DNA from: Rhyzopertha dominica
Lineage: Eukaryota; Arthropoda; Insecta; Coleoptera; Bostrichidae
DNA length: 64,000 bases
Direction of reading: 5' to 3'
Assembly (NCBI GenBank): GCA_025024175.1
Contig: QCXZ01000001.1
Coordinates: forward strand, 496,001-560,000
The first letter of the stretch is position 1. Every line of letters begins with the position of its first letter. The notes under the pieces were generated by a model. That model saw nothing but the letters and a program-made list of their open reading frames with translations. It searched no databases and was not told where the DNA came from. The position numbers and the translations under genes were made by a program. Shown piece after piece: positions 6,001 to 58,600 of the stretch.

Positions 6001-9000
6001 TAACTCAATATTAAGGTGGTCTGTCCGAAGATTTAGTTGACAACGAATTTGTTATAGTGTTGAATAAGCACTAATTTCTTAAACATAATATGTTTTTCTA
6101 CTCATGTGTTTTCCAAAGAGTAAACCTGTATATAGTTGTATTTAATGATAGTAATATAAATTTGAAAAATATGTTCTACATATCGTAAAAATTACTTACT
6201 CTCAAAAATATGAAGTGTCCGAACCTATAGTTGTTTGGGCTCGTATTGCTTAATGCTTTCAAATGCCTACCTGTAGGTATAACACCAAAATCAATGAAAG
6301 GAACACTAAAACTTATCATTGGACATATTATAAGCCCCCTAAAAATGAAGGATATAATAGCATCATGGAAGCAACCCTTTACAGGCATACTTTAAAGTGA
6401 ATGTTAGAAGTTCTCCAGAATCCACAACAAGGAACTCAATCTGTTCTATAAACTTCCCAGGATTTCCACTTGAAAATTCGATAACAAAGGCTTTATATTC
6501 ACCAGGTTCCAAGTACAATCTGTTTGGGAAACACGAAATTTCTCCCCCAAAGGTAGTATTAGCTGGCTTATATTCAATAACGGCCGGGATACATCCTGAA
6601 ATATGTCAGATGAAAGATGCCAAACTCGGATTTCAATCATGTTTTCACACCCTTGTTGGCAAGTACGACTTCATACTGGTGTTCAGTATAAATGAACAAA
6701 TTATTTGCATTTATTTCTTCAACATTTAATACGACTCGTGGTCCCAATCCTGCACCGTGTAGCTTCAAAGGTATCCGTTGCTCACTTCCAGTTATATCCA
6801 AGTATGCCGTTTTAACATAATCTTCAGCCTTGTCGGGGCAAAACAACAATGTATATTCAAATGTACTGTGTGGCCACACCTCACCAGTCTGAAACAATCA
6901 ATCAATCAGATTTGCCGATTCATTTATAAATAAAGTAACATAACTAAATATCTGCTTTAAGCAAATCCACCAGTTTACAATACTTAAGAGAAAAATTATT
7001 ATTTTATTAATTATCTTAAACTTAATATAACTTACAAGTGGAAGTATCTGGAAATGAGGATGTTTAAACAAGAACTGATTGCTGGATTCAAATTCTTCAA
7101 TCTCATCACTCAAAATTCGTTCACACACTGATACGTGGCCTTCATGAGTAATCACTTCGTATGTTTCCAATTTATTGTCCCTGCAACTTTGATGTTCCTT
7201 CATAAACTTGCACTTATCTAATATATCTTGTGACTTATTTTTATCATCTGTATATGAAGGGTACTGTTTCCATTTGAATTTAATAATGTAATCACTGTTG
7301 TTGAACAGCTTCAGTGTTCTTTGGTGGGATAAAGCCATGTACGTGTCACTAAATCGAATCGAGTGCTTTTCCAACTGAACATCAGCCTTGGTAGCACTTC
7401 CACAAACGTCGATAGTCAGTTTCTCTCCGGATTCGTAGCGTATCAAAATTTCAGAGGTAAACATCGCCACACAGTTTGGTTTGAAACTAAGAGTGAATTG
7501 CATCCTCTCATCTGGTTGAATAATTCCTTTTAAAGGAAGTATATAAAATGGATGCCTCGTCAGAATGTTGAAAGAAGCTGGCACATGACCTATATTTTTC
7601 ACTAGTAATGTTTTTTCAGCACCGATCCTTACAGGAGTAGCAGGGAACTTTATTTGATCAGGAAAGTCCACCAGGGGTCTGTGACTGATAGCTGCAAGAG
7701 ATGTTGGCTTGTATTGCAGCATACATAAGAGTTAGGTACGCTATTTCATTTAGGTACAATTGATTTGTTAATTTGTCTTATTAGTTAAGTAATTTTTTCC
7801 CTCACTCACAATTGCATCTTATAATTATTTAAAAGTTTCCATTTTTTCTACTACGCTGACACTCTAAAATGTTTCATTCAATTGGATCATAAAGGTCTGT
7901 AAGAAATGGTACATACATATGATAAGATTGGGTTATTTTAAATATCAATGAGTATTGTTATTTCTTTTTATAATAAATTTCAAACTATTTATGATGCTAG
8001 TAATTGCAATACATGGCTAAAAAAATCCAATATAATAAAGCCACCAACATCAGAAATTGTGCACTTGAACAGTATCACAAATGACAAAATAAAAGATAAC
8101 TATGTTGGTTACCAAGCTGGACCCTGAGTTTTGCTATTTTCTCAGCTCATCAGACAGAAATACTAACTTAATAACCAACACAGACAGTACATTCTAGGTA
8201 CACAATCCTACAAATTACGAAAGTAATAATAAAAGCACAACAGTGCATGAAGCAATCTAGTGGATCCACTGCATAATATATATAAGTAATAAAAATACTA
8301 ATTAACAAAATTCCTTTGAAATGAGCATTAATTTGTTTTGTTCTTGTTTTTTTAACCCACACATTTATTTATATACCTTACCCATAATAGGAACAACAAA
8401 AGATTCCTTTTCTGTAACAAAGGTAATGTGATGTTCATAATCTCTTCGTTCTTCAGGACCAAATGTGATTTTCAACTGATAAGACATTCCAGGTGCTATT
8501 TTGGTACTCACAGATTCAGTGTCATGCTTTATGCAGAAATATTGAGAAGGTTTACTTAATATCTTCAAAGGTGTTGAGACCTACAAACATACACAATAAA
8601 TTATTCATCTAAAACTTTTAAGACTAAGAAGCTAAAGTCTTAATTTAGTACCTCATGACATCAGGTTGTGTCAAAAAAATAAATACACTATAAATATGCA
8701 TATTATATGTTTATGTGAAAACATGATTAAAAGTGAACATAAAAAACTGAACATAAACTAATAGCTAAACTAGTTCAAATGAAATGTAAATAGGTATGTA
8801 ATAACTGTTAAACAGACACACAAAAATGCAGTTTTCTCTCTTTAATCAAAACTGATATACAAGGACATAAAAAAGTTTCAGTGATTTAAAGTTGTCTGGA
8901 AGGCCTAAAAGATAAAACAAATTTAATAATAATAAAATGATATTACATAAATTGAAGCACCAATTCAAAGTAACAGTATTATTAAGCATACTTACATCAG

Positions 9001-12992: not shown

Positions 12993-15900
12993 ATGTTTAG
13001 GTTTAACGGCATGCAGAGCCCCGAAAGGAGGCCTATAATCCAACCTTCGGCTAGGAGCCCCTTTTGGTGAGTCAGTATTGTACTTGCGATACGTGATAAG
13101 GTTTAAAAAACCTGAGCTGTTCAGCCCATTTTCGCTTGTCTTACAACCAGAGATAAATACTACATAATATTTGAAAGAGGCTCGCACCAGGCAGCGAAAT
13201 TTGGTGCTCATCAGTTCAGTTAACTCAAATTATTGGTACCTAATAGCAAACTTTGAATTATGCCCACCCTTTGAAGTGTTCTGTAATATAACACTTAATT
13301 ACACTAATAATGTAATAATAATGATCACTTACAACTTACAATCCTGTATAAAATCAAATTTGTTGCTGCTTGTTATATTTAAGGTATTTAAAACGTTGCA
13401 TTCAATATGTTAGTGTAACATTGCTTCAATTCTGTTCCAATTAGATTATAATATGGTATAGGCACAAATTATCAACATTCACACCATTTTCTCTTCTACA
13501 AAAGGTTTTTTACAGCAGTAGAAACCTAAACATATTCAGACAGAACTGTGTTTCCTAACTTTTCTGCCTGGACGTGTTTACACACTTCACTTTTTTATAA
13601 TTTAACTATTATTATGTTCATCATTTTGAGGAATCTTATGTAGTTTCATCACATCCTGATATTATAATGATATTATCAATCTATGCATTAAGACACGTAT
13701 AATTCTCGATATTTGAAAACAGCAAAACAAAGGTGACCCACGTGACATTACTAATTACAGACCAATTTATATTATGTCCAACTTTAGCCAGGTATTTGAG
13801 ACTTTTACATTTTTCATGAAAGTACGCTCTACTACTACCAATCTGGTTTGTTTTTTTTTCTCCAAAGCATTTGATAAGCTAGATCACAACATTTTTCTAA
13901 ATGAACTGCACTGCTTCGCAACTTCTGATGCTTTGATTGATTTGTTCAAATCTTACCTTCACAATAGAGTTCAGTACGTGACATACCTGTGTCCGGCGAA
14001 TACACTGCTACGTCGGGAGTACCACAGGGTTCTGTCTTAGGTCCCTTATTTTTTATACTGTTCATCAACGATATAATTGAAGTAAACATTTTACTTTATG
14101 CGGATGACCTTACACTTTATAGTACTAACCATTCAACCATTGATTGTATTTACGAAATTGTAAATGAAGTAAAATTTATAGACAAGTTGATTTCACGATT
14201 TTCATCGAGAACTCATATTTGATATACAAATGACATTCAATAAGTCGTTCTCATACGGTTTGCAAGCTTATTTTGGTTAGGAGTATAACACGATATCTAT
14301 ATACTTTGTTCAGCTCTTCTACAGGATTGTCTATGCATGATTCTCATCTGGAACACAATGCTTATATGATGATCTTTTCGTCGGTAGGTTGGTCCTGGAC
14401 GAATTAAGATTCCAAGGACGTTCTAATTCACTTGTTAATTTATACCAGGGTACACGTGTTTTCCATACTCACAACTATCGACGTTCCCCTCTAGATAGAC
14501 GTCCTGAAATCTAAATTGTGTGTGTGTAGGTGACGATAGGTGTACCTATATTTTTGTTTTATTACCATTTGCCTCGCCATTTGCTTTACGGTTTATTGTG
14601 ATGTTAACCTACTTTTCAAAACAGGTCGGAATATCCGTGTTAAATTTACCCTGGTATAAATTCATGGGATAATCTTTCGTTATATAGGATAGCTAGTCTA
14701 CTGTGGGTTCATAATCAAAAAGCTGCAAAACAGCATTGACAAAAGATCATTGTTTATTAGCAAAAATTGCTTGATGTCGTTCAAATAAATACACGCAATA
14801 ACGTCATATAATTTGCACTAAATTCAACAAGTTATCTTTATTACATTTGTTACCTTTGGTTCCCGAATTCCAGGTAATTATGTGAAAGACTTGCGCTTGT
14901 CAGTGTCTGCTGAAACCATCTTTCCAGGAAAATGTGGGATACATAAATAAATATCTACGCAAACGTTTGAATAATCCTCATAAAGATTAGGAAATGACAG
15001 GGACAGCAGTAGCGCCAAAGAGTTTATGATATCTATACCTGTATATGTTAATCCTACCTTGTACTAGGGGGCAAGGTAGAATTTAAGGTATATGATAGCA
15101 ACGGGCAAAGCTGTAAGTTTAATCTTTATTTATTTAGGGGCATCAGGTACCTAAATGATTGTACAATGAATACAGTTTTTCCTTTCGGAGTTTGTAGCCA
15201 TCCACCACAATTAATCTTGCCACAAACAGTGAATATAGCTTTTATGTAGTTAATATATTGCCGTACGATTGTCAAATCATGTTTATTATAGAAATAAATA
15301 TGTCTCACTATAAATGCTGGTAGGTAAACTACACTGCCCCAAGGAATTAACGCACCACCAAAAAAAATGGCCAAAACTTTGATGTAAATGATGTCCAAAC
15401 TACTTGACCAATTCGTACGGTCTGTTTTTTGTATGATAGGTTGAATCTTCCCCAAACTGACTTCATTCAGTTTAAGCCAAAATGTTGGTATAGGTACGTA
15501 GATGACACTTTTGTTATTTGGCTCCACGGTATAGAAGAGTTGGGTAGGTTTCTAAATCATTTGAACAGTCAAAATCCTGACATAAAATTTACTATGGAAT
15601 TAGAAAGCAATGGTAGTTTACCTTTCTTGGATGTCCATATTTGCAGAATAAACACTGGACACTTAGGACACAAGGTTTACAGAAAACCAACACACACAGA
15701 CAGATATTTACATGCCACATCTCGCCACCCTCCCTCTCAAAAGAATAGTTTTATAAGGACGTTATTTGTTAGAGCACAAAGGATCTCAGACGAAAGTTCT
15801 TTACAAAAAGAAATATATCATTTTAAATCAGCGCTAGTGAGAAATGGTTAAGCAATAAGAATATTTGGTCAGTTTTTAATAATAGTGCTCATCCAAATCA

Positions 15901-27900: not shown

Positions 27901-30900
27901 TCTAATACATGGTAATTTAGATTATTTACCCCGTTTATTGTTACTATATACAATATTAAATGCAAAGGCTTATGTGTCAACCCTACGAATCGACTGCAGA
28001 GTACTCGGTTTTGAAATGTTAATTATATATCGATTTTATACATTCAGTGTAGGTCAATTCCTATTTCGCGTCAGGAACACTTGGCAGTAGGTGTCAGGGA
28101 AAGACTTAACTCGTAACGTGAATCTGCTGTGTCCCTAAAGCTGGTGCTAATTAGTGCGTGTTGTATCGCAATATTTACTCGTCGGCATATATTGAGTGTG
28201 ATTTGTGCCTGTTTTTAAATTGTAGAATTAATTTTTGATGTCGTAATGAGCGATTGAAATGAAACTTGTCTGTCTTCAAGTGTTTCTATGATTCCTACTT
28301 TAGTATAACGTGACAAATCGAAAACATTGTGTTCCCAATGTTTGCAGCAATTAATTTAGAGATGATTTTGTATAGTGATTCGTTTCCTTGCAAACTATAA
28401 AAACTAAGAATGTGTTAGGAATAAAACATGCTTAGTCTGCCCTATAAAATCCTGCATTGCAGGTATTTTTTTCGAAATAAAGTTTTATTCGTTCAGGGCA
28501 AAATATCTATTAATCGTTTCCAATAGTTTTGTGGGAAAATTGTATATGTATATGCATTTTGCATCGAATTTCTGTCACATTCTAGTTGAAAACATATTTA
28601 AAACATGAAACTGTCGATATATCGAAAAGATAACTGCAGAAATGACCCTTATTTAGAAGTGCACTGAGAATCATTGGCACAACATTGCAAATTATATTAG
28701 GTAGACCTTTTTTAGAGAGCGGCTTACGGTTTTCGCAAAATACTACCAGAAAACGCATTTCTAACGGCACTACTTTTTCGTTCCGTCTACAATTGTGTCA
28801 TGTACATTTTACAAGCTTGTATTAAGAGGCCGTACCCCTTTTATTGCTTGATCACCCGATGTCATTTGGATACCCTTTAGTAATTCATTTAATACAGTTA
28901 GGTTTGATCGTTCTATAAGGAATAATACTTACAGAGTAAGCAAAAGTATGGGCGTATGATGTTCTGAAGTTCCCTGCGACATTTAATAAATTGTCAAAAC
29001 TTGCATGATCACCCATCGTAGAATGCACTAAAATTATGTAAACGTCATCTTTCAACATACTTTTGGCACTTTCGGCTAATTACATAAAAAATTAAACGTA
29101 CACGGGATTACTTCAGTTTCGAGGACCTTGTCTTAAGGCCGTGCCTTCGCACGCTCCTTTGCTGCCATTACGCCAGAAAAGGTGTGTCCCGAAGATTGCT
29201 TCGTTAACTTCATAAGCTCATAATTGGTAATATTACGACGATCACCGGCGATTACGATATCAAACGGAAGACGTTAGTGTTTATGACGAGTAGCTTCGAA
29301 AGATTTTACTCATTCCACCATGAATCACGCTTGCATCAAGGCACTTCTAAAGGGCAGGATGGAAGTGCAAAGGAAATACGATTCGTGCGGATCTGTGGCC
29401 TCCTGCGGGTCGAAATCTAGCGACGAGGACGACGACAAAGAATGCTCATCGATCTGTAAGAATCAAATTTGTTTTGGTGGCACTTTTTTCCTTCCGTTTG
29501 AGCACCCATTGATTAGTTTCCTTACAAAACTGCGTCATAAAGATGTGAACTGAAATGTCACTCCAAAAGTTTGAATTTATATATATAACACGACATTACA
29601 AGCGTAATAATGATTGTTGTTAGTAGTTCTCCCCTATATTTTTACTATATAAGCGCCGAGATGAACAGTCATAAAAGTGTGTAGAAGTTTGAAAAAAACA
29701 CGTAAACTCCAATACTGTTTATTTTCTATGAATTTCGTAAAATATCTCTACTGTTATCGAGGTTTCAATTCACCAAAAATCAAGTCAAAAATAAAACATA
29801 CGCCCATAGTACCAATCATTGACATAACTTAATATAAGTAAGGTGAATCGGTATGGTAAAAAATATTAATTTATTTATTTATTACCTACCTCAAAAATTA
29901 ATATTTTCAAAACGAAAAAATTCCTGCGTAAATTAGTCTCCTGCAGTTGCGTAGTCGTGTGACGTCAGTTAGCATACTTATATGTGTTAATTGCCATAAT
30001 CAATCATCATCCACCCTTTGGATAAAACAATAATATTAAAATGCATGTCTATGCTGTGCTGTCTGCACCTCAACCAACTGCAGATAGATCTATTTCGCAG
30101 TTATTACAGCTCATCAGTGCAGTTTAGGTCTAGTGTAGACGGCACGGCATTTTGCATTTTGCCTATATACCAAAGCAATGGTATATGATGTAAGTAGAAA
30201 ATCAACATTACACTGACATGATGACAGAGCCACCTAACTGCCATTATGAAGTAGTTCCCTTAATGGCAGTTAGGTGGCTAGTGTAATGCTGACAGATGGC
30301 ATTGCTATCTAAATGTCTACTTAAAACAATAATATGTTACTTATACTTAATTGTCTTGACAATAAAACATTATAATTTTTATTGCATAAAACAAAACTGA
30401 AAACCTTACATCCAATCAAATCAAATCCTAATAATTTTTAGGCGCAAACTTACACTATAACTACAAACTAATAATCTAGCTGAACTGACCAGTTGTAAAA
30501 TTATTATTATTGTAAAATATAGTGAGAAGATTTGTTATTGTAACACACCGATTAATATCATTTCTGTCTTTCCAGATTCTGCAGGTGTGCGTTCTCCAAC
30601 AGCAGTACGATGTCGCTCCATCAAAGAACTGGAGGAGCAACTTGCAAACCTGAGAAAGGAAAACTTCAATCTCAAATTGAGAATATACTTTCTGGAAGAA
30701 CGGATGGGTACGAATTTTCACCTTGACAAAGAGAGTGCTGTGAAAAAGAACATTGAGCTTATGGTAAGTCCTTATAAAACTGTCATAGATTATTTAATAA
30801 ACATTTTTCCTATTAGGTTGAGGTAGAAAGCTTACGGAAAGAACTACAAGAGAAGCAAGACTTACTATGTCAAGCTGTCAAGGCAATGGAGTTGGAAGAG

Positions 30901-33900: not shown

Positions 33901-36900
33901 TGATAACAAAAATATCACTTTCAATAGATGAAGCGACAGTGACTGAAAAAGTTGGTAAATAAATATTTCAAGCTTTTTGAATATTTTGGAACACTTTATT
34001 TTATACTTTGAACTAGTCACCCGACAATTTTATTGTGGTTTTTAAGACATCAGCTCAATGAGACATCATCATATGGACACGACACGATTTCTGTATGANT
34101 TTATAAAATTCGAATACTGTCTAAATACCATTTAACAGGGACACTGTATCTACGGTGTTTTGCAGTTCCCACTAGATGTCACTAATAAAATATGTATAGA
34201 AAACTGTGTTATCGGGCTTTAAGTGCTTAAGTAAGTGCTTCTGTTTTGGTTCAAATTCTGCAGCAAACTGACAAACTTGGATCTCGCACGCAAACCATAT
34301 TGATACCGTGGTTGTCCCTTATCAGTGCCTGTTCGTTTCGTGGCAATTTTGGTATTAACAAGTGCCGGTAGCCAGGCAAGAGTTTTCTCTTGCCGGTTAA
34401 AGTTGCCCTTGTGTTTTTCAATCTCTATGGCTTCCCGGACTAGTCGACAATGATATCTGGAGGTCGAAGCAAGTACTTGCGTGTCCTCGGACATGTGTCT
34501 ATTGCTTTTGAATCAGAACCTACTTAAATAATGCAAATACATTACATTACTAGATTTTTAATATTTCAAACAGGTTACATGCTGAAAACTTACAAGGTAT
34601 ACATTTTTTATTGCAAAAGCCCATAAGATTTGGATACATCCTATAGAGAAATAGAGAGAGGAACAAAAAAGTTGTGATGTTTGCAAGTTATGTCAAATAC
34701 TGCAAGTCCTTGGTCTGAAGCCCTGAATATATATTGTTCAAATATTTTATTATTATTAAGATAGGTTTGATCAAATTGTGATTTGCACCATGAACCACTC
34801 ATACATCTGTCTTTTTTTACTGAAACTGCAGGTTAGATTAAAAAAATAAGTGTTAGGTTACACATACTAAACTTGATCTGCATTGCTTAATTTTTGTTTG
34901 TGTTTGTATTTCTTTTTGTGGTACTTTAGATTGTTTATTTATTTTTTTTGTTGGCTCAAAAATGCCAAAAAATATTCATTCATATACGCATAAATAAAGG
35001 CATAATGTATATATTTCTGTTTGAGATTTAAGCGATATTCATTTTCTGATCCTCAAAATCACAGATTTGAATAATTTTAAGGTTTTATATTTAAAATGCT
35101 GGCATCGGTGGACATTTCCTATTTTTACACTTAATTTATTTCCTGAAACCACCCAAAGATAGCTACTAAAGATTTACTTCGTGTTAATAAATTACCTAAT
35201 AAAATGAGGAAGTGGAAAAGACATGAGCTAACATAAACTTCTGCTGCACAGACAGAGACAGGAACACAGGTTGGAAAAATGTTTACAAGCCAGCGTTCTA
35301 TTTTTAGCCCAGTCTCAAATAACTTCACCAGTTACATCCACCAGTGTATTGGAAACCTTAGGCGTGTTTCATTCAGTTTTAACTTTGTTATACAGAGAGT
35401 TTAGTCGAGTGGGCCAGGTTTAAGGTTATTGTGAATGAAATTTAACTTGAATACTAGTGCATCATGTTTTCTTGCGTGTGCCCTTCTAGTCACAAAGTAT
35501 GCTATTTAATGTCTATTTTATGGAAGTTGCCTTTCGATATTTGCTTTGCTTATATGCTTTATTTATTTACGCTAGAGCTAGCTAATTAAATATTTTGCAG
35601 TTTTGGTCAGAGATCATGAATACTGTTATGGATTTAACCCCAATTTTTGGAAACCATTACCTACCCCCATAGCTAGTAGCTGCGCATGACAAAATTTTAT
35701 ATTATATTTATCCAGTATTTGTAATTTCGCAAATGAATAAAAGCATGCAAATTTTGTTTTGGTCTTGTTTGTGTAGTTTAGCATAAGTGACTGATTTTTT
35801 TTTTTATCGGTTTGTCAGAATTCAATGGCGGATGTAACGGACGATGCTGCAAAACTAGCCGATCAATACAAGAATTTGGCTGCCGAACTTGAAAAGCAAG
35901 TCAAGGTAAGTGAGTACAGAAGGTAGTCTTTCATCAAGTATCTTTTCACGCAAAATATTCACATAATTTGCATTAATTGAATACTTTACTTAATACGGAA
36001 TAATATGATAAAATAAGTGCATTTCATGCAATGATCATAACATGGACACAGTATTTAGAAATTAATTGATTATATCAATAAGTTTCAAGAAAACATTACT
36101 TATGTTGCACCAAATGTAATTGTCAAAGTTAAAAAAAATTCCTTCAGTTAATAATACTTAATAATATAATAATTATTATAATCAAAATATTCAATAACAA
36201 TACTAAAGTGAGAACAATTAGGTTACTGAGTTCGATATACAAGTTACGCCACCTAAAACTCCCCAGGCTCATATTTTCTGTATTTTTTGTATTAATTGAT
36301 AATATTTACAGATGATGATATTTAGGTGAAATTTTGTAAATATGTTTTTTAATTTTCAGTGGATCTTCATTTTCTAAATTATTGTTTAGATTAATTAATT
36401 ATTAAAAAGCTAACAAGATTTTAAAATTATAAAGTACTTACCAGAATTAACAGTGATGCGTTTTTCCTGTTTTTATTACCTAATATTAATGACACGAATT
36501 GAAGAAGACTAAAGTCAGCATCCAACTATGAAGCAACTTTGCCTTCTGCACCACATTAACTGTATTTTGAGTTATAACTTTGAATATGCCCATTACAATA
36601 ATATTAAATCCAGAAATGGCAACAGCAAATAATAACATTGACGGGTTATATGTAAACTTTATTTTTCAGATGCTAATGGAAACACTGAAAGAAAAAGACC
36701 ACCAGATGCAAAGAGCCAAAGACAGCTTATTGCAAGAAATCAAAGAGAAGGAAGATCGCATCACAGACCTTGAATTTGAGTTAATAACAATGAACGCTGA
36801 AGTAAATAAATCACACAACAGTTCAGAAAAGAACGACGAAGGATCAGAGAAGTTGTCCACATTTTGGATGAAGGAGATCGAGGAAAAGGATAAAGAAATT

Positions 36901-39900
36901 GAAAGACTCCAGTCAGAATTACGGAAACGTACCTGCGATCTTCAAGGCGTCGTCAATAAGGAATTATGGGAAAAGAACAAGGAAATTGAAAGAATGCAGA
37001 AACGGTTTGGAGTTGTTGTAGACAATAAGGAGCATATTATAAAGGAGCTGAAGCAGACTTTATCAAGCAGAGATTCACAACTGAACATCCTGAAAGATAA
37101 AATTTCTGAATTGGGACTTGAAATTGATCTGTCGGCAGTCGGTGATGCACTGAACAATGCAAATGTTTCTGATGAAATTAAAACTCTACAGGAGCAATTG
37201 AAATCTTGTGAAGAGGAAAGAAAGTTCTTCATGGAACAGATTGAGGTCCTGCAACAAAAACTCAAAAGTTATTCCGACCAAGAACATCTGGCTGAGTGGG
37301 AGCAACTAAAAACCGAACATAAACATCTTAAGGAAGAATTGAGAAGAACTGAACAATTGCGTGCAGAAAGCAATGAAATATGTACTACGTTAAGTACTCG
37401 TCTGGAAGAGCTGGCGCAGTTCCTGGGTTCTCTTCTCCAACAGAAATGCGTACTAGGCTTCCTAGGGTGGAGACGAAACAACAAACTGAAACAGATTGTG
37501 AGCCAAAGTCTGAATCTTTCTCGTGCACTCACAACATCTATTTCACAACATCCCGATCAAAGCTTGATGCAACTTAGTTACATTTCCGATTTGCTAAACT
37601 CCACAAAAGCTGAAAACCTTTCCCTGTCAGAATTCTTTGTAGAAGATGATGACAATGCTGCTGCCTTCAGTATAATACCTTCTGACATCACACTGACATA
37701 TCAGAGCCACTTACAGCATGCTAGCGCAGATAAAAAGGTACCTGAATCTATTGAAGAGCAGGCTAAAATAATAACCGTTCTTAGAAGTCAGGTAGAGAAT
37801 TTGAAACGTGAAGTGGAATTGCGAGATCGAGAGATAAATAAAATGGGTGGGGGAGAGAAAATTGAAAATGATCAAGATCTGGTTAACATTTTGATGGGAC
37901 TACCAGAGACGCAGTCTAAACTTATGTCTCCCAAAAAAATTATGCAGCAGCTGATAAGTCCTGATAAAGCGAAATCTACTAAAAACCATGACAATCAGTC
38001 GGAATCGGAGTCTTGGTCTGAGCCTGATAGAACAGTTTCCTTGGCCAGAATCGGATTAGATGATGAAAGTCTCAAACCGCATAGTTCACACAGACGCAGC
38101 AAGTTCCTGACCAGTGTTTCCACAGAATCAACAGAAGATGACTTGTCTCATACCTTGACGAGAACACCTTCGAAACGCAGTCTTTTGGCTGAAAACCGCC
38201 AGACTATTATATCTTTAAATGAACAAGTGTTGGAACTGGAAAACAAAATAAAGGGGAAAGACGCTGAGCTTCTGTCGGCTCAAGTAGCCTTATTCGAGTG
38301 TGATAATATGTTGAAAGAAGAAAGACTGCTAACTGAAAAGCACCAACAGCAATTCCAGGAGCTGCAATCCAAGTTGGATGAATTGGAACAAAAACTACAG
38401 AACGCTGTGAAAAACACAAATGAAACAGAAAACGAGCTAGTCCGCACCAAGCAACAACTTGAGGAGTCTTTACAAGCATTACAAGAAGAAAAGAAAGTGA
38501 ACCAAGATTTGCAAAATGAAATACAGGAATTGCAGTCTCAAAAAGTGCAAGCTATACAAACAGCAGAAGAAGCAAAAGAAGGTGCAAGATTGGCGAATAA
38601 TGAGTTAAATGAGACGAAACAGAAACTTAATAAACTGCAAGATGATTTCAAAACAATTAAGCAGAGACATGATGCCATTCAGAAAGAGCACGAGGCAACA
38701 GTTCGCCGTGTTCAGCAGTATGCCGAAACAGAAATTGCTAAAGCACATGCTTCTGTAGAGGAAATGCAAAAAGTTATTAAGAAGGAATACATTAAAAAGA
38801 CTGAGGTAGACAGGCGGGTATTAGAATTCGAAGGTATCATACAAGAGCTCGAACACTTGAAAGATATGCTCCGAAAGGCTGAACAAAAAGTACAGAGTAT
38901 GGAACAACAAGAAATACAACTAAAGCAGACGTTACACGATGTAGAAAATCAACACAGGGAAAAGATGGCCGCCCTGCACAAAGATAAAGACAGTGCAACA
39001 CTGCAGTACTCGGAAGCTATTTTAGAGAAGACGAAACTAGCCAACGAAAAAGCCATATTAGAACAAACCGTTAAAAACTTCAATGCTAAAGAGGCGGAAT
39101 TATTGGAACAAGTCGGCGAATTCCAGAAGGAGGTAGGTGAAATGAAGACGCTATTCCAGCAGCAAATGGTAACAACTGAGCGTGAAAAATGTAAACTGGA
39201 GGTGCGGGTCAGTGAATTAGAATCTCTAAACGCCGAACTGCGTAACAAACTAATTAAGTTGCAAGTCGGTGTTGGTGAACCGTTGTGTTCTGTTTCCTTG
39301 CCGTCCAGTCCCAACCACGTGTATGACTTTTGTGCACAGGGCAGTGCCTCTATTAACGCAAATCCGTATAGTCGGCAGTGTTCTGGTTACACTTCAGAAG
39401 AGCAGCAGCACAGTTTGGTTGTTAATGAACAGATCCAAGGTGCGGTGGTTGAAGCTGAACGACATCAGGCCAATTCTTCTCCAGATTTGGGTATTGAGAG
39501 CGATCAAGGTCGGTTTTCTAGCTTGGAAGCAAACTTACCTCGGCCGTATTTGAAAACGTTGGAATTGACAGCCTCCATGAACAATTTGTTAGACGGAGAT
39601 AGCCAGCTGGTTCAGTATGATTGTTGCAGTAAGTATCCAAGTTCATAAGTTTAATAGAAATTTAAAAGGCAAACATAATTAATATGGTTCTTTAAGCTAA
39701 GATTTTCATCAAGAAAAATACATAAATATTTGATCTCAGTAACTATTTCCAAATCACTGTTGTTAATTTTCACTTTTATATGGATTTTGTGTAGTGAGTT
39801 TAATCTAGGCTTTGGACCAAATATGATGTATTTAGTTTTCTCAATGTTAGCACACAGGCATTTGTAAATATCATTCAAAACCTTGTTATCAGCAAACATA

Positions 39901-40575
39901 TATATTTCATTAAGCTTAATGTATTTCACTACATTATTTATATACAGAATAAACAAAGTGGGGCCAAGTAGTGTCCCTTGTGAAACCCCAATATCATTTG
40001 TAATGTTGCGTGAAGTATAGTTATTATTTATTTATATTTATAGTTTGTTTTATTTTTGGGTATCCGGCAACAATAGGCAAGGCAAGTATTGCAAATGTTA
40101 AATTTCGGGCCTAAATTAGTGGCCCTTCATCAGAAATATAAACATTTGCAATACTTGCCTTGCCTATTATTNTCGCTTACAAGCCGGATACCCAAAAATA
40201 AAACAAACTATTATATTATTAAATATCCTCCGGTGAGTACTTCATAAAGTTAGGTATATTTATATATACCTTTTTGCTTGTAAGTTGTGCTCTTTACTAT
40301 ACTCTTTGTAATTCCATTTTTACTTTATTTCAGTCAATGAACTATGTCGCAAAAAATCCAGGGCTGTAATAACTGAAAACAATGAACTGAAGAAGAGTTT
40401 GATAAGGACAAAACGTGCTCTAGATGAGACCGTAGCACAGCTTAAAATGGCAAACCATCACAAAAAGCAGGTAGAGAAAACTATCTGCAAACAGATCAAC
40501 AAGACTAGTCAAGTACTTCGCAAAGCAAGGGCGAATCTGGACTCGGGGTCTGAAACAGACGTTTGCAAATATTAA
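12993..40575 (+). CDS. cnn: centrosomin (CDK5RAP2/myomegalin family), long isoform
   Basis: Pericentriolar scaffold protein that recruits gamma-tubulin complexes through CM1 and uses CM2 for assembly and docking (family knowledge). Exons: 12993-13066, 25094-25152, 30576-30763, 30817-30987, 31571-31639, 31695-32654, 35819-35905, 36670-39628, 40334-40575. All phases agree, giving 1,602 residues. CM1 is seen as IKELEEQLANLRKENFNLKL then RIYFLEERM at 30576-30763, continuing into VEVESLRKELQEKQDLL. The middle is almost entirely coiled coil. The last exon encodes a CM2-like end (CRKKSRAVITENNELKKSL, TICKQINKTSQVLRKARANL). The 3' UTR has AATAAA at 40826. The long form needs an internal donor in the sixth exon (GAG/gtacag at 32655); without it translation stops at 32723. 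Introns are full of transposon debris. The very first exon is the least certain part. Confidence 0.9.
13774..14222 (+). pseudogene. non-LTR retrotransposon reverse transcriptase fragment
   Basis: Two overlapping frames carry FSKAFDKLDHN, then GVPQGSVLGPLFFILFINDI and YADDLTLY, the classic non-LTR RT blocks including the catalytic YADD. A frameshift near 14000 separates them and both ends are missing, so it is a dead 5'-truncated copy in the first centrosomin intron. Confidence 0.85.
15470..16290 (+). mobile_element. Penelope-like retroelement, 5'-truncated copy A
   Basis: The open part reads FKPKCWYRYVDDTFVIW (RT catalytic YVDD), then LPFLDVHICR and HPPSQKNSFIRTLFVRAQRI, typical of Penelope-like elements. 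After a frame break comes KLKLSLPYVQGLSEKLKR and a GIY-YIG-like block, EGVYKISCSCGKCY, interrupted by a stop at 16078. The tail at 16200-16239 holds a hammerhead-like motif, a feature known from terminal repeats of this class. Dead copy; 5' end absent upstream of about 15470. Confidence 0.85.
16200..16239 (+). ncRNA. hammerhead-like motif in Penelope-like element tail (copy A)
   Basis: GTCT and AGAC form a 4-bp stem I; TTGACAA takes the place of CTGANGA; GATTACA and TGTAATC form a 7-bp stem II with a GG loop; GAAA follows; ACGT gives the minimal 2-bp stem III with cleavage expected after C at 16235. The core carries U3 and A8 instead of C3 and G8, a compensated pair in the known hammerhead fold. 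Activity is doubtful. Confidence 0.55.
16321..17170. other. centrosomin intron 1 segment without recognised content
   Basis: No conserved coding block was seen. A 71-codon frame at 16579-16794 starts with a hydrophobic stretch but resembles no family, and no splice context supports it. Confidence 0.5.
17171..17730 (-). pseudogene. Tc1-like transposase remnant
   Basis: Minus-strand pieces read WSDESTFEVC, SIMVWGSMSARGVGQLHF, SPDLSPIETLWQIMQ and ITAVIKSKGDVTQW, colinear with the Tc1 transposase of 4966-6014 but clearly diverged. The region of the second catalytic Asp is disrupted and at least two frameshifts occur. No terminal repeats were identified. Confidence 0.85.
18440..18630 (-). pseudogene. 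mariner-type transposase C-terminal scrap
   Basis: One minus-strand frame reads EVIVKWPSTSPDLTPLDFLF then GLI, the conserved block just before the final catalytic acidic residue of insect mariner-like transposases. The sequence after it is degenerate. Same family type as the scrap near 3.87 kb. Confidence 0.6.
18631..21539. other. centrosomin intron 1 segment without recognised content
   Basis: A+T-rich sequence with no exon or transposon block that could be supported. A short TGACC tandem run occurs at about 20626-20640 and again near 23745-23760; its significance is unknown. Confidence 0.5.
21540..21857 (-). pseudogene. Tc1-like transposase N-terminal remnant
   Basis: From an ATG at about 21857 the minus strand reads MRRGKRLTAEEIGRI, a stop, then CLREEEYSNRETATRIHRR, a match to the helix-turn-helix start of Tc1-type transposases. 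The catalytic part is not present next to it. Inactive. Confidence 0.65.
22602..22975 (+). pseudogene. non-LTR reverse transcriptase fragment
   Basis: DFSKAFDKI and, further on in another frame, VKGLGVTFDQKMTF are short RT and post-RT motifs of non-LTR elements. The YADD block between them is lost, so the copy carries an internal deletion. Confidence 0.6.
23432..23638 (-). pseudogene. non-LTR reverse transcriptase C-terminal fragment
   Basis: The frame contains SPKYLRVTVDTSLTYKKHLE, the conserved YLGVTLDrsLTYkqHLe block that follows the RT domain in Jockey-like elements. Only this piece survives. Confidence 0.65.
23780..24342 (-). mobile_element. Penelope-like retroelement, 5'-truncated copy B (inverted relative to copy A)
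   Basis: Minus-strand blocks ESSLHKEIHHFKSALVRNGY, KLKLSLPYVQGLSEKLKRML and EGVYKITCSCSKCYIS (GIY-YIG) closely match copy A, with a few frame breaks. The GIY-YIG Tyr-Ile-Ser replaces Tyr-Ile-Gly. Coding sequence stops abruptly near 24340, where an oppositely oriented copy of the element tail (24347-24446) begins, a junction typical of Penelope-like insertions. Confidence 0.85.
24347..24386 (+). ncRNA. hammerhead-like motif in Penelope-like tail (copy B)
   Basis: Same arrangement as at 16200-16239: GTCT/AGAC stem I, TTGACAA core, GATTACA/TGTAAT stem II, GAAA, then ATGT with C at 24382. It shares the U3 and A8 substitutions, so the change predates both insertions. One stem II closing pair is lost. 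Confidence 0.5.
25153..27258. other. centrosomin intron without recognised content
   Basis: Between the exon at 25094-25152 and the next transposon fragment. Several open frames of 60-80 codons exist but none resembles a known protein or is bounded by convincing splice sites. Confidence 0.5.
27259..27800 (+). pseudogene. non-LTR reverse transcriptase fragment
   Basis: Two frames carry GFLDFSKTFDTINHKLLLAK and VVPQGSVLGPLLFLLYTVDM with FADDTQMY (catalytic FADD). A stop at about 27478 splits the RT domain; both ends are absent. Lies between the two promoters proposed for centrosomin. Confidence 0.85.
27801..29319. promoter_or_regulatory. region upstream of the internal centrosomin start
   Basis: No gene seen. 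If the first exon at 29320 is real, its promoter must lie in this stretch; no core-promoter motif is convincing by eye. Inferred from exon position only. Confidence 0.3.
29320..29455 (+). CDS. cnn: alternative first coding exon of centrosomin (downstream promoter)
   Basis: ATG at 29320 in context CCACCATGA opens MNHACIKALLKGRMEVQRKY, followed by an acidic stretch SSDEDDDKECSSI, and ends at a GTAAGAA donor in phase 1. The CM1 exon at 30576 accepts phase 1, exactly as the upstream exon at 25094-25152 supplies, so the two starts are interchangeable. This would give a protein that reaches CM1 after about 45 residues. Known centrosomin genes do use alternative N-termini, including testis forms in Drosophila. 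Confidence 0.72.
30036..30326 (-). repeat. composite repeat: hammerhead palindrome plus second palindrome (copy 1)
   Basis: Bases 30036-30160 form an imperfect palindrome with the hammerhead at its centre. Bases 30191-30322 form a second palindrome whose arms meet around ACCTAACTGCCATTA and TAATGGCAGTTAGGT. The same two-part order recurs at 56389-56699. It lies in the centrosomin intron before the CM1 exon. Confidence 0.65.
30076..30124 (-). ncRNA. hammerhead ribozyme motif (copy 1)
   Basis: On the minus strand: AACTGCA, then CTGATGA (30111-30117), stem II GCTGT/ACTGC with loop AATA, GAA and A15.1, stem III ATAG/CTAT with loop AT, C17 at 30083, and TGCAGTT closing a 7-bp stem I. Every invariant core base is present. 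Stem II has one U-U mismatch compared with the copy at 56.4 kb. It is antisense to centrosomin, so it would be made only from minus-strand transcripts. Confidence 0.78.
31695..32723 (+). CDS. cnn: centrosomin short-isoform terminal exon
   Basis: After the TTTTAG acceptor the frame is open for 342 codons and stops at 32721-32723. The first part is coiled coil; the end is Lys/Ser/Pro-rich (SKPASDLEVQKHKPNKSPK). An ATTAAA poly(A) signal variant lies at 32829-32834, about 105 nt past the stop. Used as the last exon it gives a 529-residue protein with CM1 but without CM2. The in-phase GTACAG donor at 32655 would instead skip the stop and join 35819. Whether both forms are made is inferred. Confidence 0.6.
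   Translation: MAKEKETSSALSEILKSQSTETDVDVTALTQELQLKEQQINQLYNQLHEFNTKFVNSNQRTRSLESELDRLNIELQSKISEIEKLQNEVATRGLEADNLKGTAASLEDMYKKESEKSEKFKKAVLLCNNKMANLEKTCEMQRAKIRNLELKLDSVQNEVKKKAMELANSKSPVRRKKSPLTDVDSFSVPDSSTNTKKESSSTITLSNEAENEKGLDNKIEEGTVKVTKEEKSERDAKMLKLKAEHYKACQIIKTMMGKQKERDCEIERLREKLRHMEGELQESRKKENQNGNAQKSNALHSKSAKTKHSPTSSKPASDLEVQKHKPNKSPKIPAKHPSSAQK
32937..33619. mobile_element. non-autonomous hAT-like element
   Basis: Ends are a 17-bp perfect inverted repeat, TAGAGATGAAACGGATA, followed inside by more Cys-Gly-rich inverted sequence (TCCGG repeats). Flanking octamers GTGCAGAT and GTGCATGT match at 6 of 8 positions, consistent with an aged 8-bp hAT target duplication. No transposase is encoded in its 683 bp. 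Located in the centrosomin intron after the short-isoform end. Confidence 0.7.
34219..34494 (-). pseudogene. Penelope-like element C-terminal remnant
   Basis: The frame reads TSRYHCRLVREAIEIEKHKG then NFNRQEKTLAWLPAL, the block following GIY-YIG in Penelope-like polyproteins (REAIEI.KH..NFNR). RT is missing. Its sequence differs from copies A and B, so it represents another lineage. Confidence 0.65.
39651..40020 (-). pseudogene. non-LTR reverse transcriptase fragment
   Basis: Minus strand reads GVSQGTLLGPTLFILYINNV, then MFADN in place of the catalytic FADD, then TKYIIFGPKPRLNSL and YLCIFLDENLSLKNHI. One continuous frame covers most of it, but both ends are lost and the second catalytic Asp is Asn. 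In the last centrosomin intron. Confidence 0.8.
40041..40210. repeat. 170-bp foldback element with hammerhead-like centre
   Basis: Outer arms begin TAGTTTGTTTTATTTTTGGG and inner arms contain AGGCAAGGCAAGTATTGCAA, both with inverted partners on the right (one N at 40172). The minus-strand centre, about 40103-40133, reads CTGATGA, then GGGCC/GGCCC as a 5-bp stem and GAAA. It lacks a proper stem III, so it looks like a decayed hammerhead. In the last centrosomin intron beside the RT fragment. Confidence 0.7.
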
Positions 40576-45469: not shown

Positions 45470-47971
45470 CCCTACATCACGTATTGTATCACATTTGCTA
45501 CATCTGAATTAAATCTGCTCTATATCATTTACGAAGTGCTTTCAGAAGTTACAACTTGTTGTATCTGATCTGCTACGTCTTAAGTTCCCTTACTATAAGG
45601 TCCACAATCGTAAATGCATATAGTGACGAATTTTACATCGACGTGTGCGCCACCACTTCCTATGTCAACAAGTGCCGGCAGTAACGTGACGACAAATTTC
45701 ATCACAATATTGTTTATTTTGCAATAATTTTCGCGAAAATAAAGTGAAACTGTATTGTTACAGAGTACTCAGGTATGTTTCTTATTCATGTATTTACATT
45801 TGTGCACTTATCATTTACAAATTTCGATCTCTTTTAGGTCGTATCATATCTGATACAAAGCGGATATGGGTTCCCGAAAAAAAATATTATCTGATGAAGA
45901 ACTAAAATGGTTCGCTGACCATATATGGGACAACTGGGAGAGCGAAGACGGATTAGATAATGAAGAGTCTGATTCAGAACCAGACTTCGAACCAGACTAT
46001 TCAGAAAATACCGATTTTTTAGATCATTTGAATCTAGATAACATTCCAATACAATTTGACGATGGAATCATGATTACTGATAATATTGATATGAACTATG
46101 AAGCTGGACCATCCTTACAAGAACATTCAGAGGCAGAGAATATCGTTCAAGAAACCAAAGATTCTGATGACGAAACATTGGCTGAAATAGCAAGAAAACT
46201 GAGCAAAGAGAAGGACACAAAGAATATTCTTTGGAAGAAGAAAAATCTAGTGATCGATGAGAATGCCACATCTTTCAGGGGAAATGCTCAATTGCCTAGT
46301 GAAATTATGGAGCTAAGTACACCATATTCATTTTTCAAATATTTCTTCACGGATCAACTTATCACATATATTGTTGAACAATCAAATTTATTTTCAATAC
46401 AAGTAGATCCTAGTAAGCCTGCTAATATTACTGAAAATGAGTTGAGACGTTACCTAGGTGTATGTCTGTATATGTCTGTGGTACATATGCCTAACCTTAG
46501 ATCATACTGGGGACGGAATTTGGGTTTCTCACAAATCAAGGAGGCAATGAGTGAAAAAAAATTTGAGAAAGTCAGACGGTTTTTGCACTTCAATGACAAT
46601 AGTAACATGTTACCCAGGGATCACACAGACTGCGATAAACTTCATAAAATTAGGCCTGTCGTAGATGCTTTATTATCTAGATTCCAAAACATTCCTATTG
46701 AATGTCATTTATCTCTTGATGAGCAAATATGTGCCAGTAAAGGTAGACATAGCCTAAAACAGTACCTTCCCGCTAAGCCTCACAAATGGGGAATGAAGTT
46801 ATTTGTTCTTGCAGGAGTATCAGGATTTGTCTATAATTTTGAAGTATATACTGGCAAAGGAAGAGCAAATGAAGAATTTGTGGATGATGAAGTTGACATA
46901 GGAGCCACAGGCAATATTGTTCAAAAATTATGTCGTATTGTGCCTTCCAATCAGAATCACATCGTATATTTTGACAACTTTTACACAAGTTTGCCTTTAG
47001 TAACGACCTTGGCAAGAAGAGGAATACTTTCATTGGGTACCGTAAGGAGAAACAGGATACCAAAGTGTAAGCTTCCACCAGAGAAGGAAATGAATAAGCA
47101 AGAAAGAGGAAGTAGCTGTGAATATGTTTGTACCAATGATGGTGTAGATGTTTCTTGTGTTTCCTGGAAAGACAACAAGACTGTTTGTCTACTCTCCTCA
47201 TACACTGGTGAACTACCTAAAACCACTATACCTAGATATGACAGAAAACAAAAAAAGAAAATTGACATCAACTGCCCTAATGTTGTCGTTGAATATAATC
47301 GTCACATGGGCGGGGTGGACTTGATGAACAGCCTTATTGGCAGATATAAAATTAAAATTCGATCGAAGAAATGGTACATCCGTTTATTTTATCATTTGTT
47401 AGATCAAACAGTCGTCAATTCTTGGTTACTCTACAGAAGACAGAAACAACAAAGTGGAGAAACAAGTAACATCATGAAATTAGCCGATTTTCGTACAGAA
47501 GTTGCTATGTGCCTTTGCAAAATGGGTTCAGAAACAACACCAAGAAGAGGCAGGCCATCAGACTTGGAGCGTGAAATACAAAAAAAGAAACAACGTTCTG
47601 TGACAACAAGTTATGTCCCTCCAAAAGATGTGCGAATGGATGAAACTAGCCATTGGCCCTCGTATGACTCCTCCAGACAAAGGTGCAAATTACCAACCTG
47701 TAAATCCTTCTCTTTCATCAAATGTATGAAGTGCGGGCTACATTTTTGTCTTAATAAAAATAAAAATTGCTTTGTCAAATTTCATACTACTTAACAATTT
47801 TCGTTACCTCAGATGCACACTGTAGCAAATGTGATACAATTAAAAATTTTGAAAAATCTTCATGTTTGAATGTCCCAATAATTTTTTAAATATTTTTTCC
47901 GTCTTCTGTACAATATTCTCTACATGAATATATTTTTTTTTCAATAAAAGAAAAAATTGCGTGATGTAGGG
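45470..47971 (+). mobile_element. piggyBac-family DNA transposon, apparently complete
   Basis: The 2,502-bp element is bounded by TTAA at 45466-45469 and 47972-47975. Terminal inverted repeats are CCCTACATCACG and its complement. A 19-bp subterminal inverted repeat, perfect at 45483-45501 and 47822-47840, lies inside, the same two-tier architecture as classical piggyBac. It holds an uninterrupted transposase and an AATAAA at 47943. The perfect termini and open frame indicate a young, possibly active copy. Confidence 0.96.
45866..47794 (+). CDS. piggyBac transposase, full length
   Basis: Cut-and-paste transposase acting at TTAA through an RNase H-like DDD domain (family knowledge). The 642-residue frame begins with an acidic N-terminal region (SDSEPDFEPDYSENTD). 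Catalytic aspartates are visible in SLDEQICASKGRH (about residue 285), YFDNFYTSLPL (about 370) and HMGGVDLMNSLIGRY (about 483). It ends in a Cys/His-rich zinc-binding domain (CKLPTCKSFSFIKCMKCGLH then FCLNKNKNC). The ATG at 45866 is the first plausible start after the 5' terminal region. No stop, frameshift or missing key residue was seen, unlike every other transposase in the window. Confidence 0.95.
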   Translation: MGSRKKILSDEELKWFADHIWDNWESEDGLDNEESDSEPDFEPDYSENTDFLDHLNLDNIPIQFDDGIMITDNIDMNYEAGPSLQEHSEAENIVQETKDSDDETLAEIARKLSKEKDTKNILWKKKNLVIDENATSFRGNAQLPSEIMELSTPYSFFKYFFTDQLITYIVEQSNLFSIQVDPSKPANITENELRRYLGVCLYMSVVHMPNLRSYWGRNLGFSQIKEAMSEKKFEKVRRFLHFNDNSNMLPRDHTDCDKLHKIRPVVDALLSRFQNIPIECHLSLDEQICASKGRHSLKQYLPAKPHKWGMKLFVLAGVSGFVYNFEVYTGKGRANEEFVDDEVDIGATGNIVQKLCRIVPSNQNHIVYFDNFYTSLPLVTTLARRGILSLGTVRRNRIPKCKLPPEKEMNKQERGSSCEYVCTNDGVDVSCVSWKDNKTVCLLSSYTGELPKTTIPRYDRKQKKKIDINCPNVVVEYNRHMGGVDLMNSLIGRYKIKIRSKKWYIRLFYHLLDQTVVNSWLLYRRQKQQSGETSNIMKLADFRTEVAMCLCKMGSETTPRRGRPSDLEREIQKKKQRSVTTSYVPPKDVRMDETSHWPSYDSSRQRCKLPTCKSFSFIKCMKCGLHFCLNKNKNCFVKFHTT

Positions 47972-55636: not shown

Positions 55637-58600
55637 TCATAAAGAACTAATGTATCTTCTCAGTTCCTCCTGTGTATCAAAGATCATCACGTGGAATGGA
55701 GAACCTGGAACTAATTCCCCAGCCCATTTGACTTCAACACGGTAATCACCTGGTTCCGTTGGGTCGTACTGAAACATTTGGTTCTAGTAAAGTATAAACT
55801 GCCACAAAACAGTTCAGAATATCGTACCTTGCACAATATAGTACGATCCTTCTGGCTTTCCCTTTGCATCTCAACCCTAAATGCACCTTTAGGTCCCCTC
55901 ACTCTGACAGTCAGTTGTCCTGCTCCCGCTCCTCGTGTGTCACAGATGAATCGTGACTGGAAGGTTGCCAGCACACCGTGTTCGATTCCTGGTCCATAAA
56001 CTCGTACCTAATCAAGTGTATAAACTTAATCAGTAAAATGAAAAAAAAATCTTGTTAAAAAAGATACAAATAATGTAATATGTGAATTAGGTGTAATACA
56101 CTGAATGGAAATGAACAAAATGTAACAAAATTAGCTCAAAATTCTAGAATTCATGCTTCCAACCAAATTATTTTGGCCCAAACCTCTTCTAATGAATTTT
56201 TACGCTCCTTTATGGTAGCATACTGTCGGTTATTTGCATATATTCTCTGAACTAAGATACCCCAAAGGTTTTCAATGGGGTTCATGTCAGGTGAACAAGA
56301 GGGGCACTCACCGTCGACTCTCTACTGACATGAATCCTCACAAATTATTTTGTTATTGCAAAGCAAGTTAAAATCACAAAAAGATACTTTAAAATGCATG
56401 TCTATGCTGTGCTGTCTGCACCGCAACCAACTGCAGATAGATCTATTTCGCTGTCATTACAGCTCATCAGTGCAGTTTAGGTCTAGCGCAGAAAGCACGG
56501 CATAGAACATGCATTTTAATGTGTGTCGGTTCTTGCTCGCTTGCAAAAAGTGCCGTGGGGGCCTGCTGTCAAATTGAAGTATACAGGTGCACGCCAATTG
56601 GTCAGGCTACAGGTCACTTCCTTCAGGAAGTAGATCTCATAATGGAAGCTAGGTGTCAGTATAATGCTGACATATGGCACCACCATCTAAATACTTACTT
56701 TACTGGCATCAGGTGCTCCGGCAACTTTAAGGACGAACGGTGACCCCGGCACATGTTGACCAGCGTACTTTATAGTCAAGGCATGCCGGCCGGGTTCTTG
56801 CGGCTTAACATTTAATGTAAAAGTGGCATCGCCGTGATCATACAATTCACAGTACGCCACTTTCCTGGGACCAGTACAATGGGCAGTCAGTTCTCCTGGA
56901 CCAGCACGTCTTGTGTCTATCCAAGAACGAATTTCTCGCCCGACAACTCCCTGACGTAAGCCTTCCCCAGAGCATAAAACCTGAAACCAACAAAAACAGG
57001 TCTTTTACGTGTCTTAACTGTAATTCTGGAATTTGCGGAGCAAAGGTAAGCTATGAGGGTTGTTCAAATTTAAATTAAGATTTGTATTTTCTTTGTAGAT
57101 GCTTTTAACTATATGCCAAGCTTTCGGAAATGTTTGACTCCTTCTTCAGGGCTTAAAATCTTTTATTTTCTTTATTTACAAAGTCACACCACACTTACTT
57201 CTAGTCATTAATTCATTGATTATGTAAACAGGATCACAGCAAAACAACTACAGGTTAACAGGAAACTAACAAATTCATTGTAACATTTAGTGGACTACAT
57301 TTAAAAATTGACAAATTGACAAAACATACAAATAATACAGCTTGATCAATTTCGATAATGTGGAGTAAATTATGTGTAAATTTTTGATAAGTTTTTTATA
57401 TCACTTCTTTTATTTATACTATTTGTCTGCTTATCTATGTGTACCATTTCCAGAAACAGTCGTTTTTTTTTAATTATTTCTTTTTCTAAAATTATTGTAA
57501 GATTCTAAAATAAAATTTGTGGTTAAAATACAAACAATGATTAAAAATTACTAATGTTTTTGCATTTATAACATTCCTTTTATGTTTTTTAGTCAATTAT
57601 TCAGATGTCTATACTGGGTGAAGGCTTACTGAACTATGAAAGATATCATATCGGCATAAATTGCAATGAAAAAAAAATAATCTGGGAGTTTCTAAAGCAC
57701 CAGTGGCACCTATCTGGTTTAGTTCAAGTTTAGTTTAGTTTGACAAAACATCTAATTTTTTTTAAAGGTATTAGAAAACTACCGGTCCGATGGCGCCAGT
57801 GCATTATGCAGCAGGGGTACAATGACGAAAAATAATGTAAATTAAACTGTATTTTGTTTGTAATAAATAAATTATAATTCTAAAAGATCATGTCTAAAAC
57901 GAACCTTGGAAGCATCAGCTCCACCTTTTGCTTCAACCATCAGAGGACATCCTTTTACAGGTCGCCCCGCCCACAGAACTGATAAGAGGTAGTTTCCAGG
58001 GATGTTGACTGTGTAAGTAGCGCGCCATATTTTGTCACCAGCCAAACTGATCATAACGGGAACTGGTAAGTTTGTATCGGCCGCATACAATGTAACTTCT
58101 GGATTCCCTGGAGAAATAATACCAGAGTCAGATATATTCAATATCAAGAATTTAATTCAAGCAAAAATTATTGATTTAAAATATAACACCATCTTGTAGA
58201 ATTTTTTTTAATACAACTTGATTTGCAGGTCAATGTAAGTTGCAAGTTAGGTGTCACTTTCCACTAAAATTAAAATGATTTGTAAGGAGTTTTCCAACAT
58301 TGGAAGTTACCTGGGTTTTATAAATTTTGCCACGAATCCACAAAAGTTTTGGTACGAACTGAAAAAATTGTTTCTTCTAGGTCGTGTCATTTTAACAGTC
58401 AGCAATGACACAGGGTGAAGCATTTTGCTTGTTAAACGGGATATCACCATTAAAATACATTACAAAAAAAGTAATTGAGCAGTCATGAGCTCATTTTGTA
58501 TGATGCAGTCACAAATTGGTTATGATCTTTTGTCACTGAGCAATCAATGATTTCTGGATTTTTAGCTAAATATCATGTTTATTTCTACTCATAGAGAAAA

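Follow-up and report, generated by a model that had tools for sequence, protein, structure and literature searches.

We found that the hammerhead ribozyme motif in a filamin intron of Rhyzopertha dominica quite probably belongs to a non-coding, retrozyme-type retroelement, with the hammerhead likely self-cleaving and the element likely spread by the Penelope-like reverse transcriptase of the insect. A two-end insertion rule, followed both by the retrozyme and by a Penelope-like element (PLE) of the same genome, provides specific sequence evidence for this link, suggests a reason for the position of the hammerhead, and makes exact RNA start points available for the published PLE assay. The filamin copy, in turn, shows an insert that landed on a splice donor, supplied half of it and brought a predicted ribozyme into the pre-mRNA.

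A type I hammerhead at the apex of a long hairpin

The motif is located at 56429-56477 on the minus strand of the window, the whole 64,000-nt stretch of DNA that was analysed. Every core base is present, and the motif is of type I with stem I open. It comprises stem I of 7 bp (56477-56471/56435-56429), the CTGATGA box (56470-56464), stem II of 5 bp (56463-56459/56454-56450), the GAA box (56449-56447), A15.1 (56446), U16.1 (56437) and C17 (56436), all on the minus strand, with the cut predicted at 56436/56435. The invariant positions and stems I and II had been described in an earlier note on this DNA and were confirmed exactly where it placed them, but the 4-bp stem III of that note was corrected to 3 bp with a GAUC tetraloop, because only two loop nucleotides would remain if a fourth pair formed. 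No match at the gathering thresholds was obtained when the whole window was compared with Rfam. When 1.1 kb was searched, the model Hammerhead_HH9 matched 56417-56485(-) with 26.8 bits (E 3.2e-4); the covariance-model check suggested earlier thus returned a hammerhead, but one below the HH9 gathering score of 52. A looser type I descriptor hit one site in the window, again 56429-56477(-), and gave 56 hits in 6,050 dinucleotide-shuffled windows. Folding placed the hammerhead at the apex of a near-palindromic hairpin of 131 nt at 56389-56519(-) (MFE -66.8, z -8.84, with 139 nt folded), and constraining the hammerhead pairs raised the energy of the best fold by 3.6 kcal/mol over the unconstrained MFE.

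Another strong hairpin of the window, at 40050-40165(-) (z -8.4), carries CTGATGA and GAAA in its loop and is itself a repeat (96 candidates, 40 scored). It was rejected as a hammerhead, being a separate repeat in which, as judged by eye, the parts are out of hammerhead order.

The hammerhead is repeated at high copy number with a conserved core

A ribozyme core pattern with six free positions had 1,486 + 1,434 = 2,920 exact matches across the 479-Mb genome (138 contigs), and the reversed-pattern control gave 0 + 0 matches. A genome search with 151 bases returned 768 candidates, and scoring of the best 40 gave 51 matches. The 40 primary matches, target included, were 92-100% identical, and the identity of the filamin copy to the other best-scoring copies listed among these 40 was 92-98%. 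A second copy within the window, at 30036-30150(-), is 94% identical over 115 bases and is flanked by a 14-base duplication, TAAAACAATAATAT.

We then tallied stems II and III at 100 listed core-pattern places, all on contig C1 and transcribed by eye. The variable pair of stem II was G-C at 79 places, A-T at 13 and G-T at 3, and was unpaired at 5. The loop of stem III was GATC at 52 places, GTAC at 42 and another sequence at 6, and hence palindromic in 94/100, as if pairing between two ribozymes had been kept. For salamanders, the accessible text of PMC7229834 describes stem III loops that are palindromes, together with dimer activity.

In an alignment of 33 hammerhead copies (29 distinct), 96.9% of the cells pair, compared with 21-44% when the partners were slid. 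Changes on both sides were seen in a single pair of the alignment, a number equalled by 480/500 shuffles, and the 6 such cells in that pair were reached by 3/500 shuffles; the covariation score over the 33 copies was 0.051, with one slid version close to it at 0.049. The copies are closely related, and covariation lends weak support to the predicted hammerhead. When 30 loci were compared with their majority sequence, differences were seen in 2/360 cells at the twelve core positions and in 86/2,880 elsewhere in the hairpin (p 0.003), and this low variation of the core suggests selection on the ribozyme prior to insertion.

Other hammerheads were observed in the same genome. A second family (GTCGGTATCTCC-core-GGAG.., grouped by eye) was seen at L001, L002, L003, L005, L006, L010 and L016; its core pattern has 30 exact genome matches, and a decayed copy lies in the window at 8095-8195(-) (z -3.0). 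A third family, with stem II GCCCC..GGGC, was seen among 18 Rfam HH9 matches (L004, L007, L008, L009, L011-L015 near 1500). L017 contains an older hammerhead that is related to the target family and has its right arm.

Anatomy of the retrozyme

Alignment of the oriented loci gave the order of the unit as hammerhead, arm A', a short segment B, and the next hammerhead; many inserts open with the reverse-complement arm A. Direct tandems were found in 2/50 fetched loci: L028 has two direct hammerheads spaced by 338 nt, and L049 has three in tandem, with spacings of 350 and 351 nt. The filamin copy is a single unit. Folded as a circle, one 350-nt unit (GC 0.44) reached -138.5 kcal/mol, with z -10.7 over 60 mononucleotide shuffles. 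There is no room for a reverse transcriptase ORF in the 305-nt filamin insert or in the 350-nt unit, and the retrozyme is therefore not itself a PLE. The right end is TTTT; transcription by Pol III ending there was considered and dropped, because arm A itself contains TTTTT. On these sequence features, we assign the family to the retrozyme type, with a predicted type I hammerhead, a non-LTR organization, a unit of 338-351 nt and few tandem arrays.

Retrozyme insertion follows a two-end rule

In the hammerhead-sense RNA, we defined site 1 as ..CTAAATTCTTACTT and site 2 as ..ACATGCATTTT. The fetched loci comprised 30 top search matches and 20 loci chosen from the core-pattern places, favouring close pairs and a tandem, and every pairing of a left with a right end was tested in 51 loci (L019-L068 and the second window copy). 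Duplications were found in 24/46 pairings of site 1 with site 2, one per locus, and in 0/39 same-site pairings (20 site 2/site 2 and 19 site 1/site 1). Fisher's test for mixed versus same-site pairings gave 1e-8, a rough value, as the pairings of one locus depend on each other. All inserts with a detected duplication (24/24) thus have site 1 at one end and site 2 at the other. The remaining 27/51 loci, including the filamin copy and L049, lacked a qualifying duplication and were counted neither for nor against the rule; in L049 a 13-base duplication, ATCCCAATTATAT, was read by eye and was not picked up by the script. With other motif strings, the result was again 24/51, all mixed, with L032 replacing the window copy, and the mispaired control gave 13/552. 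In a first duplication test, 14/20 copies with a defined left end had a score of at least 8, compared with 3/380 for mispaired flanks.

The target-site duplications span 8-15 bases, mostly 12-14 bp, and vary in sequence; their median length is 13 bases and they are 80% AT, compared with 65% AT for the window. Sites 1 and 2 are 154 nt apart, with the hammerhead inside. Among the titles found by the literature searches, which lay largely outside subscription papers, none dealt with a retrozyme from beetles or with such a rule for retrozyme ends, and within that scope this rule, together with a hammerhead in the tail slot, is new.

PLEs of the same genome follow the same rule

The window also contains a reverse transcriptase-like fragment at 15408-15848(+), which had no Pfam match alone and which we took to belong to a PLE. 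A genome search with this fragment returned 7,829 candidates; the best 150 were scored, all with E < 1e-72, and among them open frames of up to 814 aa were present. RVT_1 was identified by Pfam in 3/3 long ORFs tested. The GIY-YIG domain is a mark of PLEs; it was not found in these three beetle ORFs (Pfam, E 0.001) and was present (PF01541) in 4 of 120 listed relatives of one of them. One relative of that ORF, with 45% identity over 96%, is a protein of Anolis carolinensis, the same species whose PLE is the subject of PMC11167929.

When the end pairings were tested in 18 PLE loci, duplications were found in 7/16 pairings of site 1 with site 2 and in 0/17 same-site pairings (p 0.003); 7/18 loci had a duplication, and all 7 were mixed. 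The duplications have a median of 13 bases and are 79% AT. The two PLE sites are 36 nt apart, the stretch between them being the PLE tail. No hammerhead was found by Rfam (E <= 1) in L081, L082, L084 and L086 (4/6 long PLE loci), by the core regular expression within the PLE inserts of L081-L086 (6/6 long loci), or by a minus-strand scan for CTGANGA in two L081 end regions. The one hammerhead that the regular expression hit in L081-L086 is of the second family; it lies at L083 3266(-), beyond a full-length PLE insert and about 145 nt away from it. The inverted ends of the PLE at L086 5913-6030(+) make up a palindrome scoring 48.1 bits with the Rfam model MIR6135 (gathering 99), and this palindrome is likely not a microRNA.

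Probable mobilisation by a Penelope-like reverse transcriptase

The sequence itself shows both ends, the target-site duplications, the inverted arrangement, the tandem arrays and the high copy number, and we infer a course that would involve cleavage, circular RNA and mobilisation by a PLE. Self-cleavage of tandem or read-through transcripts at the hammerhead would release units, which would then be circularised by a host ligase. A Penelope-type enzyme would nick both strands of an AT-rich site and start cDNA synthesis from two fixed positions in the retrozyme RNA, and the resulting insert would consist of a left half antisense from one point and a right half sense to the other, with the hammerhead between them.

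Copying by PLEs is likely because both elements have the same unusual pair of insertion ends. A 2020 paper had proposed PLEs as retrozyme helpers because both coexist, and in its accessible text they are a strong candidate only (PMC7229834). The shared end rule supports PLE mobilisation as a more specific sign than coexistence, yet it is no proof. No kinship between the end sequences of the retrozyme and the PLE was detectable (181/1,000 shuffles scored as high), and since no common end sequence was detected and no hammerhead was found in the PLE loci searched, the helper may be another PLE. One start point per strand also exceeds the in vitro anole data, as the anole paper, in its accessible text, reports no difference between top and bottom start points (PMC11167929).

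We also considered that the same retrozyme was moved by a LINE or by a PLE family not seen here, and that the inverted left half arose by self-priming of the cDNA rather than from two start points, which we judge rather unlikely. The flanks following the right-end TTTT often begin with AA, and a preference for AA is a trait of LINE endonucleases. The ends of the PLE and the retrozyme are without detectable common sequence, and the inverted junctions of the retrozyme fall within the palindromic arms; self-priming was inferred for rotifer PLEs by their authors (PMC3846280, accessible text). However, self-priming alone leaves the fixed and always different ends (24/24) unexplained, and the PLEs of this genome do likewise (7/7), with equally long, AT-rich duplications. 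We therefore favour two-point priming by a Penelope-type enzyme as the probable route.

An insertion on the splice donor of filamin

The host gene was identified as filamin by PF00630 in 5/5 filamin frames searched, one of them exactly at the cut-off. Direct reading placed the intron at 56008-56698(-) (691 nt), with donor GT at 56698-56697 and acceptor AG at 56009-56008, and the flanking exons join in frame (DASK followed by VRVYGPG). The hammerhead and filamin are on the same strand, and the earlier description of a complete hammerhead in sense orientation within a filamin-family intron was borne out. An insect host had also been claimed, and it agrees with the neighbouring centrosomin-like ORF at 36571-39645(+), whose closest named relatives are from beetles and then flies.

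The retrozyme occupies 305 nt of the intron, at 56391-56695(-), with site 1 (antisense arm A) at its left end and site 2 after the hammerhead at its right end; the left boundary was placed according to other copies. The left copy of the target-site duplication, AAAGTA, is at 56696-56701(-) and straddles the exon/intron border (score 6, weak). The right flank at 56378-56390(-) reads AAAGTATCTTTTT, in which AAAGTA equals the left copy and the remaining of the 13 expected bases are absent at the left; the short left copy could be accounted for by a small deletion between repeats of AAGTA. As the six duplicated bases straddle the exon border, the present donor GTAAGT (56698-56693) is half host (GTA) and half element (AGT). 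The ancestral donor was presumably GTATCT, which is still at the right end of the insert; splicing from it would place VSI and then a stop after DASK. The ribozyme may cut the filamin intron during transcription, as predicted from its sequence, and the copy is most likely a tolerated passenger.

A further reading, in line with the effects on splicing, RNA decay or release of an intron piece suggested in the earlier note, is that the intron holds a domesticated hammerhead with a regulatory role in filamin pre-mRNA. The sense strand, the intact core and the donor-side position fit this proposal, and intronic hammerheads are known in vertebrates (cited in the accessible text of PMC7761336). We consider it very improbable, as the motif is a high-copy repeat with close copies elsewhere and the core pattern recurs throughout the genome, so that the gene-specific reading gave way to a mobile-element insert at a donor. 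The distance of about 220 nt from donor to hammerhead simply corresponds to the stretch of the element that precedes the ribozyme. A MITE of a piggyBac-type DNA transposon with TTAA ends and a chance hammerhead-like loop, for which the palindromic arms, TTAA at both ends of the hairpin and an intact piggyBac-type ORF in the window would speak, is scarcely credible and was refuted by the longer, varied duplications of 8-15 bases around the inserts, the TTAA being internal or accidental and tandem arrays being present.

Other features were seen in the window. An uninterrupted piggyBac-type transposase frame of 646 aa is at 45854-47791(+) (PF13843, E 2.5e-82). Downstream of the retrozyme in the same filamin intron, about 56330-56150(-), lies a scrap that by eye resembles the C-terminus of a Tc1/mariner transposase (DMNPIENLWG..). 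A mir-305-like match at 56690-56776(+) (32.3 bits, gathering 66) is antisense to the filamin exon and is probably due to chance, because it overlaps the codons for HVPGSPF.

Comparison with known systems

The best Rfam match of the filamin locus, the intronic hammerhead HH9 (RF02275), is likewise of type I and intronic. HH9 is a conserved amniote locus, whereas the filamin hammerhead belongs to a high-copy insert, with a score under the gathering cut-off.

Small animal retroelements with type I hammerheads, including those of insects, are already known, and the metazoan non-LTR retrozymes described in the accessible text of PMC7229834 resemble the present family in the type I hammerhead, a noncoding unit within 150-450 bp, tandem arrays, duplications of more than 4 bp, GC below 50% and the presence of PLEs in the genome. 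In contrast to the retrozymes of PMC7229834, direct tandems were found here in only 2/50 fetched loci, and the remaining inserts that could be resolved are short, have halves in inverted orientation and end at two fixed sites that differ from each other.

According to the accessible text of PMC11167929, reverse transcription of the anole PLE has two neighbouring start points within the RNA, the tail corresponds to the sequence that separates them, and cleavage and extension take place on both strands of AT-rich target DNA. For rotifer PLEs, the accessible text of PMC3846280 describes inserts that are completed by an inverted pLTR and in which one inverted pLTR may bear a 31-bp tail; it quotes duplications of 8-10 bp. 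The retrozyme is like these PLEs in its two fixed ends, inverted end copies, an optional tail on one end and an AT-rich target (PMC11167929; PMC3846280). It differs from PLEs in having no protein and no detectable sequence in common with the PLE ends of this genome, and its tail slot is 154 nt long and holds the hammerhead, compared with 36 nt in the PLE. We give an even chance to the view that animal retrozymes mimic the Penelope end region, with the hammerhead placed in the tail slot between two start points and all new copies arising by two-point priming on hammerhead-made RNA.
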